From NCBI RefSeq assembly GCF_020921035.1, contig NC_063155.1, positions 8,107,001 to 8,171,000 on the forward strand: a DNA stretch of 64,000 bases, in the 5' to 3' direction. The stretch comes from Rhodamnia argentea (taxonomy: Eukaryota > Streptophyta > Magnoliopsida > Myrtales > Myrtaceae). A program made the translations under genes and the position numbers. Of the stretch, positions 5,925 to 59,550 are shown piece by piece. Numbering within the stretch: the first letter of the stretch is position 1; each line of letters starts with the position of its first letter. The notes under the pieces were generated by a model, which saw nothing but the letters and a program-made list of their open reading frames with translations, was not told the origin of the DNA and searched no databases.

Positions 5925-7583
5925 ATGTTCGCTGAAGCAGCGTTTCCCGCGTACCCAAGAACTTCGAGAGCGCTGCAGCAACACCTCTTCTCTCTGCTCC
6001 GGAGCTGCGGCGCCTCGAGGGGCCTCCCTCAGATCCACGCCCAGATCGTCGTCAACGGCTACACCAGCAGCAATTTCGTTCTCGTCCAGTTGCTCGCTCG
6101 CTACGTCGGTTGCGGCCTCTTCGCGGACGCTTCGAAGGCCTTCCAAGGCGCCCGGAACTCGAGCACTTCCGTATGGAACCAGATGATCCGGGGACACGGG
6201 CGAAGCCCGGCGCCGCGAGGATCGGTCGAGTGTTTCAATCGGATGGTGCGCGGGGACGCCGAGCCCGATGGTTACACGTATTCCCATCTCTTGAGCGCTT
6301 GCGTGAGGTCGGGCTTGTTCGGAGAAGGACTGCAGGTGCACGGGAGGGTTTTGAGGGATGGGTATGTCTCGAATCCGTTTGTGAAGACGAATTTGGTGAA
6401 TTTGTATGCAATGGGTGGAGGGGACAGTGGGATGAAGGACGCGTGCAAGGCGTTCGACGATATGGGCGAGAGGAATCTCGTATGTTGGAATTCATTGCTT
6501 GCCGGGTATGTTAGACGGAGAGACATGGGTGGCGCGAGGAAACTGTTTGACGAGATGCGCGGGACGAATGTCGTCTCTTGGACAATAATGGTTGCTGGGT
6601 ATGCTCGGAATGGAATGTGTAGACAAGCGCTGAGTGTGTTTAATGAGATGCGGAGACTTCGGGTGGAGTTAGACCAGGTGGCTCTGGTAGCTGCACTGTC
6701 GGCTTGTTCGGAGTTGGGAAATTTGAAACTTGGCCGGTGGATCCATTCCTATGTTTTCGAGAAAATATGTGCTAAAAATCAGCAACTGTCGGTCACTCTG
6801 AACAATGCGATTATACACATGTATGCTAGCTGCGGTTCTATCGATGATGCCTACGAGGTGTTCAGGAAGATGCCAAGGAGAAGCACGGCTTCTTGGACGA
6901 CCATGATCATAGGATTTGCAAAGCAGGGGCTTGCGGATGAAGCTCTTGGGATATTCCATATGATGCTAAGCATAGGAGAACCAGAAGCACAACCTGACGA
7001 GCTAACTTATATTGGGGCTCTGACTGCTTGCAGCCATGCCGGGTATGTTGATGAGGGCCGCCATATTTTCAAAAGCATGAGTGCAAGTTGGGGAATCAAA
7101 CCGAGAATCGAGCATTATGGCTGTATGGTCGACCTCTTGAGTCGTGCTGGAAACTTGGAGGAAGCCTGTCGGCTCATAGAAACCATGCCCATGAAACCGA
7201 ATGAAGCTGTGTGGGGTGCCCTGCTTGGTGGTTGCAGGATTCATAAGAATCCCGAGATCGCCTCTGTTGTGGCTCAGAGACTAGAAGTTGAGCTCAACCC
7301 TGACGGCTCTGCGGGCTATCTTTTGCTTTTGTTGGAAACATATAGGACTGCTAAAAGATGGATGGACGCGAACAATATCAGGCAGAAAATGATTGACACA
7401 GGCACGAAGAAGCCAGCACCTGGCCGAAGTTGGGTTGAGGTCAATGGAGTCATTCATGATTTCGTGGCCGGTGACATAAGCCACACGCATACGTTTTTCA
7501 TACACGAGATGCTTAGAAAGGTGAAAGTTCAAGCTGAGTCGGGAGGATGCCAGCCAGATGAGGCTTTGTGTGTTGCAGCTTAG
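5925..7583 (+). CDS. PLS-class pentatricopeptide repeat protein, E+ subgroup (552 aa)
   Basis: One uninterrupted 552-codon frame, as usual for plant PPR genes. Tandem PPR motifs run from about residue 80 to 425, for example SVWNQMIRGHG, NLVCWNSLLAGYVRR, NVVSWTIMVAGYARNG, ASWTTMIIGFAKQG and HYGCMVDLLSRAG. They are followed by an E motif (AVWGALLGGCRIHKN) and an E+ motif (PGRSWVEVNGVIHDF). There is no DYW deaminase domain; the protein ends about 50 residues after the E+ start. The family acts in mitochondria or plastids as site-specific C-to-U RNA-editing factors that recruit a separate DYW protein. The first 45 residues lack a clear acidic run and could be a transit peptide. Target RNA and orthologue cannot be read from the sequence. 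It is tail-to-tail with the epimerase gene. Confidence 0.93.
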   Translation: MFAEAAFPAYPRTSRALQQHLFSLLRSCGASRGLPQIHAQIVVNGYTSSNFVLVQLLARYVGCGLFADASKAFQGARNSSTSVWNQMIRGHGRSPAPRGSVECFNRMVRGDAEPDGYTYSHLLSACVRSGLFGEGLQVHGRVLRDGYVSNPFVKTNLVNLYAMGGGDSGMKDACKAFDDMGERNLVCWNSLLAGYVRRRDMGGARKLFDEMRGTNVVSWTIMVAGYARNGMCRQALSVFNEMRRLRVELDQVALVAALSACSELGNLKLGRWIHSYVFEKICAKNQQLSVTLNNAIIHMYASCGSIDDAYEVFRKMPRRSTASWTTMIIGFAKQGLADEALGIFHMMLSIGEPEAQPDELTYIGALTACSHAGYVDEGRHIFKSMSASWGIKPRIEHYGCMVDLLSRAGNLEEACRLIETMPMKPNEAVWGALLGGCRIHKNPEIASVVAQRLEVELNPDGSAGYLLLLLETYRTAKRWMDANNIRQKMIDTGTKKPAPGRSWVEVNGVIHDFVAGDISHTHTFFIHEMLRKVKVQAESGGCQPDEALCVAA

Positions 7584-12960: not shown

Positions 12961-13199
12961 GCGGGCGGCTGGTGGGTCGGGGGGCGGCCTTGCTTTGCTT
13001 CTCTTATCGGTAATGGTTGGCGCGCCAAATTGCTGACCTGGAAAATTCCTACTTTTATTTGTAGATTAATTTGTGTGCTGTTTATGCACCGTGAAGCAAA
13101 TTAAGCGTAAATATTATGAAAAATCTCAAACTGGTATATCTGTGATAAATATATCTCAAATTACAAAAAATCATAAATCGATACACTTGTGATAAATTT

Positions 13200-14877
13200 G
13201 AAAAAATGCCAAAAAAGGGCCCCAACTACACTTATTTTCTCAATTAAGGGCCCGAAGTGCAACTTGTCTCAAAAAGGGGCCTGAAGTGCCTTCTTTCAGT
13301 TCAAACAAGGGCCTGAATGGGGACACTTTCGTCTTTTTACATTTTGATATTTTTTTTTCCTTTTTTCCTTCTCTTTTTTTCCTTTTTCTTTCTTTCCTCT
13401 TTCCCTTGCACCGGCGTACGGATGGCTCAGCCCCTGCACCTCTTTCAGCCGCGACTTCCCCGACGGCGACCCCTCACCCAAGCCGATGGCCTCCCCACCG
13501 CGTCCCGCGGGCGGATCTGCGGGGGGTCCCTCCACCCCCCGGGGGAGACTTCGAGTTCTGCCTCAAAGATGCAGTCGCTGTGCTCCCGGCCGACGAGCTC
13601 TTCTCTGACGGGAAAATCGTCCCGCTTCAGCTCTCCGTCGCGAAGCTGTCGTTGGAAGCGCCCTGTGCGGCGAGCCTGCAGTCGCCGGAGAACAACTCCG
13701 AGCGCAGCCGGAGGATCAAGATGAACTCCAACCGCTGAAAGGAGCTCCTCTGCCTCAAGAAGCTGTACCAGAATCAAAACCCTAAGCGTGCTGAGTCCAG
13801 TTAGAAGAACACCCAATCAACGTCCAAATCGGTGATGTATTTTCTCCACCGCAGCTCCAAATCTACCTCCGATGCCTCAAATCCGAGCCTCCCGTTGCCC
13901 AGAGAATCCTCTGATGGCGAGTCCGTCTCCATCTCCGTGTCACTCGCTGTCCTCTTCGTGTCACTCGTTGTCCTCTTCGTCTTCCTCCAATCACGAGCTC
14001 GAGGACCTCCACCGCCTCTCGCTAGATTCCGACTAGCCTATCCCTAACTCACTCCACAAGAACGGTAATACCGTGGCAGCGATGAATGTCCCCAGGATGA
14101 GGCTCGTGAAGCCGAGACCGGACAATCCGAAGGCGTCGACGGATCACCATCCGGCGGCGGGCAAGGCGGAGAGGAGCCCGATGCGGAGATCCACGGAAGA
14201 GTCATCGGGGGGCTTGATGAACAGACGAGTGACGGCGGACAGCCCGAGGCTGAACACGTCGGGGAAGGTGGTGTTTCACAGTCTGGAGAGGAGCTGGAGC
14301 AGCCGAGCAGTTACGGTGGGTCCAGATTCAAGTACAGAGGCGTGGAGAGGTCGTATTCAGCGGGTGTTAGGGTCAGTCCGGTCCTCAACGTCCCAATCAG
14401 TTCGATTAAGGCGGGCTCCGTCTTCGGGTTGGGTAAGCTGTTTTCATCCTTCTCCTCCTCGTCTTCTTCGTGTCATCTTATTCGCAGCAGAAGAGAGAGG
14501 GCAACAATGGGAAAGGATCTTCGGGTGGAAGAAACCAGTAGAGTAACAGCAAGAATCGGAGCGAGCAGAGTCGGTGAAATCTCTCTATCCATCTTCGATT
14601 ATAGGACAAATCTCCTGAAAAACGCCGTGAGGCGGCCGCTCAGCCCACGGCCACCGGCGACGAGGAAGAGAACAAAAGGAAACAAGAAAGAAAAAGGAAA
14701 AAAAGAGAAGGAAAAAAGGGAAAAAAATCTCAAAATGTAAAAAAATGAAAGTGTCCCCACTCAGGCCCTTGTTTGAACCGAAAGAAGACATTTCAGGCCC
14801 CTTTTTGAGACAAGTTGCACTTCCGGCCCTTAATTGAGAAAATAGGTATAGTTGGGGCCCTTTTTTGGCATTTTCCC
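13200..14877. mobile_element. Pack-MULE-like transposon, 1,678 bp, with 9 bp target duplication
   Basis: The two ends form long TIRs: about 195 bp at 13200-13395 matches the reverse complement of about 14683-14877 with few differences. The shared outer phrase is AAAATGCCAAAAAAGGGCCC. GATAAATTT flanks both sides exactly (13191-13199 and 14878-14886), a 9 bp duplication typical of Mutator-like elements. Inside the TIRs are a pyrimidine tract (left) and a purine tract (right), then a GC-rich payload derived from a host gene. No transposase is present, so it is non-autonomous. It sits inside an older element, and paralogous copies show the GATAAATTTACCC site uninterrupted. Confidence 0.88.
13480..14510 (+). 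pseudogene. Captured, disabled DUF1645-like gene fragment inside the Pack-MULE
   Basis: Two conserved segments are readable. Near 13545-13640 is DFEFCLKDAVAVLPADELF then GKIVPLQLS, the PADELF...G.I.PL pattern of DUF1645/membrane-associated-kinase-regulator-like plant proteins. Near 14315-14440 are YRGVERSYSAG, VRVSPVLNVPIS and SVFGLGKLFSS, resembling the C-terminal motif of the same family. Between them a TGA at 13736-13738 stands where NR-Trp-KEL would be expected, a TAG follows at 13802-13804, and at least one frame change separates a Ser-rich block ending HELEDLHRLSLDSD. The copy is therefore disabled. Order and orientation of the parent are kept and no intron is evident. Family assignment is from memory of motifs. 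Confidence 0.7.
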
Positions 14878-15240
14878 GATAAATTTTACCCTCTATTTAT
14901 TTTCATTAAACTTTACCGTCAAATTATTAAGTTAGATGATACATGGTAGTTGATGGGTCTATCGATTTGAGAGTTTTTTTTATCCTCCATTTGTCGCAGG
15001 TGTATTAATTTGAGATTTTTCATGGTATTAACCTAATTTAAAGAAAACTTATGGATGGTAAATTTGTCGCGTATATATCGGTTTGAGCTTTTTGATGGTA
15101 AAAAAAAAATAATTTGAGATAAATTTATCGTAGACGTACCAATTTGAGATTTCTTGTGATTAAAAAATTAATTTGAAATAAATTTATCACAAATGTATCG
15201 GCTTGAAGTTTTTTTTTTTTATGGTATTAAATACCACAAG

Positions 15241-15481: not shown

Positions 15482-16320
15482 GGGAAAAGGGAAAAAAAAG
15501 TCATAAATTTATTGCATTTGGTATCAATTCAGTCATAAACCTTTTAATTTCATTAATTTAGTTATAAACCTTTTTGCTTAGGTATCAATTCAGTCCATCC
15601 GACCAATTTTAGCCAGAAACTACTAACGTGGACGTCAATCATCTTATGTGGCACCACCAGTAATGACGTATTTTTTTATATATATTTTTAGAATTTTTCA
15701 TGATATTTTTTTGTTACTTTTTTTCTTCCTCCCTTGTTCTTACTGCAAGTGGCCAGCTGGGGGTCGGCCACATGTGGGGGTTAGCCTCATCGGACCAAGG
15801 GGGAGCACCCCTCACCAGATCTGGCGAGGCCTCGCCTAGGCAGGGACCACGGACTTGGAGCCCAGCTCCAGAACGGACGGGGATGACGCCGACGACGAAG
15901 AAGAAGAAGAGCCATCTTCGTGTCCATTTCATTGATGGAAAAACCAGAATTTTCAGCTCGTTGTCAGGCCTCGCGCTCGAAATTGGCATCTGAACCTAAT
16001 TTTTCGTGTCCATCTCACTAATGGAAACTATAGGCAGCAAGAACACGGGGGAAAGAAAAAAAAACAGAAAAAAGGAAAAAAATAATAAAAAAATCCAGAA
16101 CAATATTTAACAATTATAAAAATATAACACGTCATTGTCGGTGGTATCACGTAGAACGATTGTCGTCCACGTTAGTAGTGTTTCCGGCCAAAATTGATCG
16201 GACGGACTGAATTGATACCAATGCAAAAATATTTATGATTAAATTGATACAATTAAAAAGTTTATGACCGAATTGGTACAAATGCACTAGATTTATGAGT
16301 TTTTTTTTTGTACTTTTTCC
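15482..16320. mobile_element. Non-autonomous TIR element (~840 bp) with GC-rich core
   Basis: Left end GGGAAAAGGGAAAAAAAAGTC...CATAAATTTATTGCATTTGG is mirrored by the reverse complement of the right end. Inverted similarity extends about 240 bp inward (shared ATTCAGTCC.TCCGA.CAATTTT and ACTAACGTGGACG phrases). The core 15740-15990 is GC-rich and non-coding. No target duplication recognised. Confidence 0.75.
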
Positions 16321-18781: not shown

Positions 18782-21184
18782 ATGAAGAGGCTCAGCAAAA
18801 ATGTCGGCGACACTGACGAGCCCTCGAAGCAATCCGACCCTGATGCTCTGGTCGTCCCGAGAGATCCGGACAAGAAACCCGGGTTCAGCCCAATGCGGGT
18901 CATGGGTGTGGTCCTCGCTTGCTTGATGGTCATGTCGGTTGTGTTTTCTGTGTCGGTGGTGCTCAGAGACCCGCCCGCGAATGGTGTTCCTGCAGAAGGA
19001 AGAGTTCATGAAGATACAGCCCCCAAAGGTACGAACTTCACGTTTGTTTTGCTGAGCATTGGATCTGGCTTTTGTGTGTCGCCAAGCATAAGCATCTGTG
19101 TTCAGTTGTTACTTCTTACTTGTGGAGCTGGATTTGACTTGAGCCTCTCTGGTGACTGATGAAATCTTGGCGAATGATTAGCAAGAAACGCCTTGTTTGC
19201 TGTAAATAACCACACTTTGTAATTCCTGGGTTGCTTAACCAGCATCCATTGTTTAGTACCTCAATTCTGCGGTCTTTAAAGATTCATCCAACTGTGTAGT
19301 TGCTTGAAATTTCTAATGGGACTCGGGCACTGATGTAGGTGTAGTTAGAAAATCATAGTTCTGTTATGTCCATGTTGACAGGCTTCTTTACAAGCAATTT
19401 GAATTTGAGTTGGCACTCAGATTTGCTCCGTTAAAATACGGTGCTCGCAGATAGCTCATGTGGACTTTACTTCCATGTGCTTCCCTCGACTTCTCTGACC
19501 ATGTTATCTTATGTCACTCAGCATCTTGGATTAATGTTTGTGTAATGTTTGTGATGATCTGGATCTTATAGATGGACATAACAGATAGAATAAGTTGATA
19601 CATCCCAAATGAGTTTTTAGCAGCCTTTCCTTTTTAACAATCTGCACTGCAATTCATAGTTGGAGATGGTCAAGCCCTTCTCTGTTGTCTAACCACAATC
19701 ATAGCTTTTTTCTTTCTTCCGACAAGCCATTGGTTCAGATGAAGTTGCCTCTGAGACTGTGGGGGAGCAAAAGAATGAACTGCTGGGTGGATTGCTTGCT
19801 GCTGGGTTTGATGAAGGATCTTGTCTCAGTCGATACCAATCAGTTTTATTCCGCAAGGAGTCAAAGCAGAAACCTTCTTCTTATCTCATCTCTAGATTAC
19901 GAGGCTATGAAGCTCTCCATAAGCGATGCGGACCTCATTCCGAGTCTTACAAGAGAACCTTGGAAAGGCTCAAATCTGGCCATTCCATGGGAATCTCAGA
20001 CTGTAACTATGTTGTATGGATTTCCTTCAGTGGATTAGGGAATAGGATATTGACTCTAGCTTCAGCATTTCTCTACGCGCTTCTCACGAACCGCGTTCTT
20101 CTCATTGACCCTGGAGTTGATATGACCGATCTCTTCTGTGAGCCGTTCCCAGAGGTTTCATGGTTTCTTCCTTCAGATTTTCCCCTTAAAGACCAATTCA
20201 GTGGCTTCAATCAAAAGTCTCCACACTGTTACGGAAAGATGGTAACCAGTAACTCCTTACGTAAGTTGGAGATACCCTCTTTCACATATCTCCATCTTGT
20301 CCACGACTACAATGACCATGATAAGCTTTTCTTCTGTGATGATGACCAGTCTTTTCTCCAGAGCATACCCTGGTTGATCATGAGGACAGACAATTACTTT
20401 GTTCCATCACTCTTCTTGATCCCTTCGTTTGAGCAAGAATTGGACAACCTCTTCCCAGAAAGGGAAAACGTTTTCCATTTCCTGGGACAATATCTTTTCC
20501 ACCCTACAAATTCTGTATGGGGACTCATAAGTAGATATTATCAAGCTTATTTAGCTAAAGCAGATGAAAGGATAGGGATCCAAATCAGAGTCTTCGATAC
20601 TGGAGTTGGTCCATTTCAGCATGTTCTAGACCAGATCCTAGCTTGTACCACGAGGGAGAATCTGCTACCGAGGACAATCGAGGAAGGATCCCCAGAGGTT
20701 TCATCCTTGAATCAGAAATCCAAAAGCCGTGCTGGTGACATCTTTATCGTCTGGTTATTTTGAGAGGATAAGAGATATATACTGGCATTACCCGACGACC
20801 ACAGGAGAGGCAGTTAGTATTGTGCAGCCGAGTCATGAAGAATATCAGCAAACCGAGAAGGAAATGCACAATAGGAAGGCATGGGCGGAGATGTACTTGT
20901 TGAGTTTGACCGATGTGCTGATCACGAGCTCTTGGTCAACTTTCGGTTATGTAGCTCAAGGTCTTGGAGGTTTGAAGCCATGGATCCTCTACAAGCCTGA
21001 GAATCGAACAGCTCCTGACCCACCCTGCCGCAGAGCAATGTCCATGGAGCCTTGTTTTCACGCGCCTCCATATTATGACTGCAAAGCTAGGCGAGGGGTC
21101 GACACTGGCAAGCTGGTACCCCATGTGAGGCATTGTGAGGACATGAGCTGGGGCCTTAAGCTCGTCGATCCTCATGATAATTGA
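18782..21184 (+). CDS. GT37 galactoside 2-alpha-L-fucosyltransferase (FUT1-like), with a frameshift
   Basis: Type II Golgi enzyme family that transfers fucose from GDP-fucose to galactose on xyloglucan or arabinogalactan side chains. Exons are 18782-19028 and 19727-21184 (GT-AG, joined at PK|AIGSDE). Residues 40-61 form a signal anchor (VMGVVLACLMVMSVV). The luminal domain contains GFDEGSCLSRYQS, YVVWISFSGLGNRILTLAS, the donor-site motif IGIQIRVF, WSTFGYVAQGLGGLKPWILY and PHVRHCED. At 20722-20725 a run of four A shifts the frame after K415: the first frame stops at 20761-20763 (about 427 residues), while the conserved continuation AVLVTSLSSGYFERI reads on in the next frame to 21184. Without the extra base the protein would be about 567 residues, the usual size. 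Either a sequence error or a real null allele/pseudogene. The ATG at 18782 was preferred over the upstream in-frame 18704. Confidence 0.92.
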
Positions 21185-56807: not shown

Positions 56808-57330
56808 GGGTTAATATCACAGAAAATCCCAAACCGATACATCTATGAAAAATTTACCATAAACTATTTTTTTAACCACAAAAAATCATAAATTGATATA
56901 TTTGTGATAAATTTACCCCAAACTGAGTACACCTATAACAAATTTATCCTCCGTTAATTTTCGATAAATTTAACTATCAAATTATTTAGTTGGATGACAC
57001 GTGACGGTTGACAAGTATATCATTTTAGGGTTTTTGCCCTTTGTTTGTCATAAGTTTATCAATTTGAAGTTTTTCGTGATATTAACTCCATTTAATGTAG
57101 GATAAATTTGTCACAAGTATACCAATTTGGGGTATTTCATGGTCAAAAGAATTAATTTATGGTAAATTTGTCCCAAGTATACCAATTTAAGGTATTTCAT
57201 GGTCAAAAGAATTAATTTAGGGCAAATTTGTCATAGGTGTACCGGTTTGGGATTTTTCGTGGTAAAAAAAATAGTTTTTGGTAAATTTGTCACGAGTGTA
57301 CAAGTTTAGGGTTTTTCATGGTAATAACCC
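56808..57330. mobile_element. MULE-type foldback element B (523 bp) with 9 bp target duplication
   Basis: TIRs GGGTTAATATCACAGAAAAT and, reversed, GGGTTATTACCATGAAAAAC. TTTGAATTT flanks both ends exactly (56799-56807 and 57331-57339). The interior repeats a degenerate ~55 bp unit (GGTAAATTTGTCACAAGTAT then ACCAATTT...GGTATTTCATGG). No coding capacity. Related to 13105-15234 and 59056-59550. Confidence 0.88.
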
Positions 57331-57361: not shown

Positions 57362-57712
57362 GGGAGAATTAGCACAAAAAAAAAAACCCTAAACTTATTA
57401 CAATTATGCCGATTCAGATCTTAATCCCCCCTTTTTTTTGTCAATTCAGTCCTAAACATTTTGCATTTGTGCTAATTCAGTCTATCCGACTAATTTTGTC
57501 CATCGAAAAAATAGAAAAACTAAAGAAAAGAAAATGGAGAAAAAAGAAGAAAAAAAGTTATAAAAATCCCCAAAAATTATTGAAATATTATATAAAAAAT
57601 TTACATCGGCGATGGCGGACAAAATTGGCTAGATGGACTGAATTAGCACAAATGTTAAAGGTTTAGGATTGAAATGACAAAAAAAAAGTTTAAAATTGAA
57701 TCGACACAAGAA
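57362..57712. mobile_element. Non-autonomous TIR element (~350 bp)
   Basis: Left GTGCTAATTCAGTC.ATC and GTCCTAAAC phrases are mirrored on the right (GGACTGAATTAGCACAAATG). AT- and purine-rich centre with no GC core, so it looks like a core-less relative of 62610-63242. Confidence 0.65.
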
Positions 57713-58650
57713 AAATTTTAAAATAAAGGCCTGGAGTACTCTGATTTTCTTAAACAATGGCATAAATTGGACATTGTTTGAAACAAGGACATAAAATGCC
57801 CTCTGTGTTTAAAAAAAAAAAAAGACCTCACTAATGGCATTTTCATTATTTTCCTTTTTGATTTTCCCTTTTACCATGTCTATTTTTTTTCCCTTTGTTT
57901 TGCTTAGACCATCGCATGCTTACCCTCCCTATTGTTCATCGTCTTCAATCTAGGGCACTGTTCATCATCTATTTTACAGAGACAACCCATGTCTCTTTTC
58001 TATGAAATTTTTTCCTTTGCTTGTGGCACCCGTTTGCAGATAAGGCTTCTGGTTGCTTGGTCGACGCTCGGTGACAGTCGTACCGCCCCTCTAGTTCTAT
58101 TCATCGCCAAGCTTGCCGAGGTCACACGACCCTAGCGTTGGCGCGACTAGGGACTAGCGACCTCCTAGGCTCACATCGACAACCCACTGCAAGACTCGAG
58201 GCTCGTCATCCTCACCGTCAATGGTGGTGATGATCGATTTTCTTCTAGTGTTCTCGACAAAATGTGGCCCCCTAAAATTGTTGAGCACTTCCATGGAGAC
58301 TCGACAACAAAACTATTGAAATTGTCTCTCTTGGCCTCGCCTTGTCCAAAGACAAGGCCGTCCTCTATGGCTGCGAGGGACACCTTGCTGGCAATAGGCA
58401 AGGCTGGCCCTCATTAGATCTGGATTGTTTATGAGATGATGAACAGTGCCCTTCTTACATAACAAAGGCAAAATATAGAAATGGGAAAAAAAGAAAAGAA
58501 AAAAAAAGAAGTGACAAAAATATCCTTAGTCATGCCTTTTTTTGAAACAAATACGACACTTCGGGCCCTTATTTAAAAATAAGATTCACTTTATGTCTTT
58601 ATTTGAAAAAATGAGGGTATTTCAAGTTCTTATTTCAAATTTTTCCTCGA
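57709..58650. mobile_element. Non-autonomous TIR element (~940 bp) with GC-rich core
   Basis: AAAATTTTAAAATAAAGGCC on the left pairs with the reverse complement of the right end (AAAAATTTGAAATAAGAACT). Core about 57900-58430; purine tract 58480-58520. It abuts the preceding element. Confidence 0.65.
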
Positions 58651-59055
58651 CACAATTATAATAAATTGAGGATTTTTTTTTGTGGTAATTCTTCCAATGG
58701 TTTTCGGGGGATTAAGAGCACGTTGGCAACGGCCTTTTGAGCGCGACATTGATTAGGGACGTACGAGGTGGTGCTGTGTAATTATCCCATATTTTTCTGT
58801 CTCTATTTGACTAGTTCAGTTGAAGGATTACCAACATAATGATGCTTTGTCATCTCTCTTCAGCAATTTCATTTCCTTTTCTAAACATACAGTTTGAATT
58901 CAGTGATCCTTTTGTTTTTTTATCACATTAGCTACCGATTAGGGATTTTAAAATAATTACGACGGGCTATGTCGTATAGAATATGCAACATGGTTCCTTT
59001 TTAACGTCCCAACTTGATAAAAGTAATTTTCGAAGTTACATATAATTAATTTTTT

Positions 59056-59550
59056 GGTTAATACCACGAAAAATCCCAAATTGATATGCATGTGATAATT
59101 TACTTCAAATTATTTTTTTGATCATAGAAATCTCAAATTGATACACGTTTGACAAATTTACTCTAAGCTATTTTTTCCAAAATTAATATATCTGTGATAA
59201 ATTTATCTTAAATTAATTTTTTTGATAGGAAAAATTACCAAACCGGCACACATATGATAAATTTACCCTCCATTAGTATTCGTTAAATTAGATTAATACC
59301 ACAAAACCCTAAATTGATACGCTTGTAAACCCAAACGTGTACACCTGGCAATTGCCACGTGTCTCGAACTCAACAATTTGATGATAAAATTTAACAAAAA
59401 TTAACGAAAGGTAAATTTGTCACGTCAGTACTAGTTTGGGGTAAATTTGTTAAATGTGTCCTAGTTTTGGAATTTTAGGTGATCAAAAAAATAGTTTAAG
59501 GTAAATTTATTACATGTATACTAGTTTAAGGTTTTTTGCAGTATTAACAC
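59056..59550. mobile_element. MULE-type foldback element C (495 bp) with 10 bp target duplication
   Basis: Left end GGTTAATACCACGAAAAATC, right end GCAGTATTAACAC. TTAATTTTTT flanks both sides (59046-59055 and 59551-59560). It contains ATATGATAAATTTACCCTCC, the uninterrupted form of the site into which the Pack-MULE at 13200 inserted. Confidence 0.82.

Follow-up and report, generated by a model that had tools for sequence, protein, structure and literature searches.

A Rhodamnia argentea Pack-MULE carrying nearly all of a host open frame, gained once and now present at six genomic sites

The Pack-MULEs of rice, maize and tomato, as described in parts of PMC3310237 and PMC8277862, are non-autonomous elements with long terminal inverted repeats (TIRs), a 9-11 bp target-site duplication (TSD) and an interior derived from host genes; their payloads are GC-rich, and multicopy forms with distinct TSDs occur. 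The element described here resembles them in each of these respects. It differs in holding nearly a whole open frame and in retaining, at one junction, an inverted piece of the flank of its source gene. Most Pack-MULEs hold shorter gene fragments. Animal Pack-TIRs, in the sections of PMC8277862 concerned with them, likewise have microhomology at their breakpoints and are discussed under gap-filling and fork template-switch models. Single-copy animal cases are described there as biased to nearby sources, whereas the present element is multicopy and its source lies on another chromosome. Pack-TYPE elements and Pack-CACTA are also TIR elements with host coding DNA, and the capture route proposed for them in passages of PMC8903248 is the fusion of neighbouring insertions, which the junctions of our element do not support.

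The window is a stretch of 64,000 nucleotides (G000:C6:8107001-8171000), and it was compared with the whole assembly (346.66 Mb, 74 contigs). It contains a long open frame at 5925-7583, which we take to encode a pentatricopeptide-repeat protein, and open frames at 19705-21184, presumably related to plant xyloglucan fucosyltransferase. Between them lies a genuine Pack-MULE, a kind of element that is already well known. Its outer parts are given below in window positions, and coordinates within the element are prefixed el.

13200..14877, + strand: Pack-MULE element, 1678 bp, defined by TIRs, TSD and genome copies with matching ends
13191..13199, no strand: left copy of the target-site duplication GATAAATTT, exact (9/9)
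13200..13394, + strand: left TIR, termini GAAAAAATGCC / GGGAAAATGCC
14632..14877, + strand: right end derived from the TIR family, common to elements without the DUF1645-like payload
14684..14877, - strand: right TIR, from a BLAST self-match of the element
14878..14886, no strand: right copy of the target-site duplication GATAAATTT, exact (9/9)

The original prediction of a Pack-MULE-like element, with TIRs of about 195 bp, a flanking 9-bp duplication, a GC-rich payload and no transposase, is borne out. BLAST of the element against the window aligned el 4-195 with el 1485-1675 over 192 columns at 93.75% identity, and an inverted-repeat search of the window returned an ungapped match of 184 nt at 89%. 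Payload GC is 0.57-0.59 in 500-bp windows between 13250 and 14499. No long transposase-like frame was found in the element, and Pfam searches with four payload frames gave only a sub-threshold DUF1645 match and one chance-level match (E=0.69). The element has the long TIRs and a TSD in the 9-11 bp range of a MULE; it also has the marks of a Pack-MULE, with no transposase, a host-gene interior and movement as a unit together with its payload, seen in its multiple genome copies.

The TIRs belong to a family that is found across the genome. The 21-nt terminus, with up to 2 mismatches, matched 156 + 164 places, compared with 0 + 0 for a reversed control, so the family is genuine and chance is excluded; the lack of any other copy with the same TIR, which had been named as grounds for rejecting the element, does not apply. 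At their nominal ends, 18 elements (the window element and 17 of 20 retrieved regions) have 13 exact 9-bp TSDs and four at 8/9, and the remaining one (L017) becomes exact once one end is moved by 1 bp. A further 16 elements, drawn from another 20 retrieved regions and with ends movable by up to 3 bp, have 15 exact TSDs and one at 8/9; these rates are not valid for all sites, because the elements were chosen for two matching ends. Family members are mostly about 1-1.6 kb long and make 9-bp target duplications. The retrieved members without the window payload have GC-rich cores of their own (0.52-0.73; 0.45 in L016), which are unrelated to the payload except at the right end, where el 1433-1678 (or from 1434-1440) matches L016-L027 at 80-86%; L018 to L028 cover both ends. 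Two members about 28 kb apart, L055 (C3:18679280-18680436) and L056 (C3:18651182-18652340), may represent one segmental duplicate instead of two insertions, since they have an identical TSD and interiors that are 98.6% identical. TIRs are not necessarily identical at insertion, and their divergence is therefore a poor basis for dating.

The element interrupts an older repeat, which has two uninterrupted relatives elsewhere in the window.

13107..13190, + strand: older repeat, left part (13107-13199 matches 56810-56914 at 70%)
14887..15213, + strand: older repeat, right part (14882-15213 matches 56940-57257 at 68%)
56808..57330, + strand: MULE-like relative of the interrupted repeat without the insertion, exact 9-bp TSD TTTGAATTT, terminus GGGTTAATATC
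59055..59550, - strand: MULE-like relative of the interrupted repeat without the insertion, exact 9-bp TSD TTAATTTTT

Nesting inside an older MULE had been proposed, with the two relatives taken as in-window empty sites. The MULE-like label is fair, because both relatives have exact 9-bp TSDs; for the interrupted copy itself, the range tried yielded no TSD with 8 or more of 9 positions matching. When the two flanks are joined, their longer aligned pieces are about 67-74% identical to the relatives, and the junction is crossed by the 59055 relative with a 1-nt gap and by the 56808 relative with 30 extra nt. The relatives are distant paralogues and not clean empty alleles. They are supportive of an insertion here, and the TSD carries the weight. 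Between the two relatives there is another TIR element (57710-58646) with an exact 9-bp TSD TCGACACAA, with distant similarity to the focal TIR over part of its length. Inverted arms of about 240 bp at 80% identity bound 15492-16307, with no TSD of at least 8/9 in the range tried; this is probably another MITE or MULE-like element.

The payload proved to be a copy of a host gene with an intact frame elsewhere in the genome.

13411..14601 (el 212-1402), + strand: captured copy, running from source codon 18 through codon 399 and the stop to 26 bp beyond it (1201 alignment columns, 90.3% identity)
14603..14626, - strand: 24-bp inverted piece of the source 3' flank (fold-back filler), identical (24/24) to L003:1458-1481 on the opposite strand

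The predicted capture of a host-gene fragment is confirmed by an open frame at G000:C2:27324211-27325407 (399 residues, no internal stops), at a different locus from the window and about 90% identical to the payload at the DNA level; nearly the entire frame was taken. A protein search of the genome, in which all 34 first-look candidates were scored, found one intact copy, this one, along with pieces of it at the six sites of the element and a pair of distant relatives (30% and 38% identity). To judge from its open frame, the source is probably a single-exon gene. The payload lacks a start codon, codon 18 being counted from the first ATG of the source frame, and the window copy has four in-frame stops in the source frame and seven frameshifting indels, as counted on the alignment. 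The two separate DUF1645 motif blocks described earlier are ruled out, as both belong to one collinear copy of codons 18-399. The DUF1645 label stands only as a likeness: PF07816 scores 20.3 bits on the payload and 17.2 bits on the intact source protein, each below the gathering cut-off of 25, and the payload gene is DUF1645-like without reaching the Pfam threshold. Genes with DUF1645 have been linked to stress tolerance and to grain length; nothing found here connects the source gene with either.

The payload copy has spread to at least six genome places. These are the window, L009 (C1), L011 (C4), L012 (C5), L013 (C7) and L014/L015 (C1). L011 is interrupted by 3.26 kb, L012 has an internal deletion and L014/L015 is split by about 10.9 kb. 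The left payload junction is common to all six copies and the right junction to five, L009 having lost the right segment. Because the copies share these junctions at sites with different TSDs, a single capture followed by transposition is indicated, and the chimera carrying nearly all of the C2 host frame was gained once and now occupies six sites. The TSDs of three copies are imperfect (8/9 in L011 and L013 and, by hand count, 7/9 in L014/L015). L013 and L014/L015 have one internal deletion in common (el ~716-1171 missing), which is consistent with transposition of the deleted form. The copies differ from one another by K2P distances of 0.084-0.158 and from the source by 0.080-0.144, with the window copy nearest to the source. 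The tree of copies is a star in which none of the 4 inner branches is supported, and 201 of 257 derived states are confined to one copy.

The intact source, together with an unusual seam in the copy, gives a fairly clear hint at the manner of capture. On the left, the payload joins the element at a 6-bp microhomology (CCGGCG), and on the right the exit lies at a 4-bp microhomology (CGCC), both read by eye against chosen comparison elements (of the L024/L026 type on the left). The 24-bp filler beyond the payload matches its origin at 24, 21, 22, 23 and 22 of 24 positions in five copies, the window copy being the one with 24. Five elements without the payload match at 12-14 of 24, a background level at which L009 (14/24) also lies, and the longest match of this type among 100 shuffles was 13. 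An inverted filler of this sort would be the signature of a fold-back template switch. As a possible sequence of events, an element undergoing DNA repair or replication may switch template into the source gene, guided by microhomology; synthesis may then fold back onto the opposite strand of the gene's 3' flank and finally return to the element.

Insertion into a MULE of a processed copy, made by reverse transcription of the source gene, would be another way to arrive at such a chimera. Lack of introns does not discriminate here, since the source consists of one open frame. The payload ends show neither poly(A) nor a duplication in any of the copies with intact junctions, the payload lacks the 5' part of the frame along with its start codon, and it has microhomology on both sides and a piece of the 3' flank from the opposite strand; moreover, other family members hold other genomic segments in the same arrangement. 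We regard a processed copy as very improbable.

Those other segments came from a survey for the same TIR with different payloads, as suggested in the original prediction, which was carried out in part and found a PB1 segment (n=4), a third payload (n=2) and a fourth (n=3). In all, the TIR family thus has at least four payloads: the focal one, pieces from at least two further host genes, and a fourth segment. The PB1 payload is a 585-bp segment, of which about 550 bp derive from a C5 gene at 89% identity, and the open frame of that gene has a Pfam PB1 match above the cut-off; all six candidates in this search were scored, and the sixth match (C6:24945031) reaches only 71% over 119 bp. The third payload, a 359-bp segment, matches a C2 locus at 94% (3/3 candidates scored), where the open frame has no Pfam match. 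The fourth is a 442-bp segment, split in one of its three elements (8/8 candidates scored). On C1 it has three matches arranged in tandem, with identities of 95-98%, and on C11 one that is partial and diverged (78%). Pfam searches with the payload pieces of these other elements gave nothing, PB1 being found only through the intact source.

Capture might also have occurred by tandem insertion and re-mobilisation, with one element on each side of the source gene and the whole moving as a composite, a route put forward for Pack-TYPE elements in several superfamilies (PMC8903248). Such a fusion predicts element ends around the source. A search with the first 200 bp of L024 (E up to 1e-3) found no TIR match within about 3 kb on each side of the focal source gene (L010), and the source loci on C5 and the second one on C2 have only short similarity (38-51 bp, 72-82%) to the pyrimidine-rich part of the TIR. 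The C1 cluster has, within the retrieved 10 kb, a 107-bp stretch with 72% similarity to the TIR end (L078:2209-2315), which points to an older relative of the family near that cluster and lends the composite route some support. Within the focal element, BLAST against the window found no second TIR pair. Its payload begins within the open frame at a microhomology and ends in inverted source 3' flank, and composite excision alone gives neither. The composite route is therefore unlikely for this element.

The junctions of the other captures are, by eye, roughly 1-4 bp overlaps, save for one left side with 48 bp that are unexplained. No inverted filler was found in four junction stretches from the three other captures, so it is present in one of the four captures examined. 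The 48 bp lie at el 189-236 of L046, between the TIR and the PB1-gene segment, with similar stretches in L048 and L052; compared with the PB1 source locus, the stretch in L046 has no match above the shuffled background. By eye, the distance from the element's end to the break on the element side is about 210-218 bp for three captures and near 188 bp for the other one, which hints that breakage or stalling may favour the base of the TIR.

The fate of the captured frame was examined by comparing the six copies with the source. In the source frame, in-frame stops are present in five of the six copies and frameshifting indels in all six; L009, with no in-frame stops, has four frameshifting indels. 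Copy-specific changes are spread evenly over the codon positions (64/71/64, P=0.78), and differences between the source and all copies fall mostly at third positions (6/4/24, P=2e-5), which indicates that the source has been under constraint and the copies have not. A protein-coding role of the copies is disfavoured by the stops and frameshifts and by this flat distribution. Retention of the copies for a function, either as a new coding gene or through small-RNA control of the source gene, is improbable overall. PMC8277862 mentions suggested small-RNA roles for Pack-MULEs and describes coding roles as rare, and the payload copies here are about 87-92% identical to the source (from substitution counts); the coding form has against it the disabling changes and the lack of codon-position bias in copy-specific changes.

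The copies have decayed in a way that is consistent with silencing. With the source base as reference, C-to-T changes number 88/1005 at CG, 72/761 at CHG and 39/1539 at CHH, these counts being not fully independent because some changes are common to several copies; mirror controls within CHH gave 7/274 (GHC) and 12/353 (GC). Counts against the majority base lead to the same picture (CG 101/1102, CHG 83/793, CHH 34/1634), and on that basis A/T-to-G/C transitions number 70/2287. An excess of C-to-T changes at CG and CHG is what past plant DNA methylation would leave, and the copies would then be silenced by CG/CHG methylation and yield no protein.

The genome is rich in MULE transposase domains: 150 of 474 candidates were scored and all 150 exceeded the cut-off. 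When 100 of the 320 TIR sites were compared with these 150 domains, one pair lay within 20 kb, and there the MULE domain is not inside L016 but about 5.5 kb beyond it. Three long TIR-bounded loci (L016, L041+L042 and L043) were considered as autonomous partners and rejected, as eight chosen frames from L016, L041 and L043 contain no MULE domain by Pfam. One L041 frame matches the integrase models rve and Integrase_H2C2 above cut-off, and the length of this locus is therefore probably due to an inserted retrotransposon. Since no autonomous element with these ends was found among the 100 of 320 TIR sites and 150 of 474 domains compared, we infer mobilisation in trans, with the transposase probably supplied by another MULE. 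Very probably, then, the element is a non-autonomous Mutator-like Pack-MULE that captured a host gene, was mobilised in trans and left silenced copies.

PMC3310237 (2012) and PMC8277862 (2021) treat the way in which MULEs and their relatives gain host DNA as an unsettled question. We tentatively propose, as a reading somewhat less likely than not to be right, that this TIR family is a natural record of MULE gene acquisition, in which synthesis exits near the inner edge of the TIR at a microhomology, copies a distant gene, possibly folds back in its flank and returns at another microhomology. The CG and CHG decay of the copies suggests that the captured coding DNA was silenced in the past. With an intact source, six copies from one capture, an inverted filler and three further captures, competing models of capture can be tested on the junction sequences of this family.
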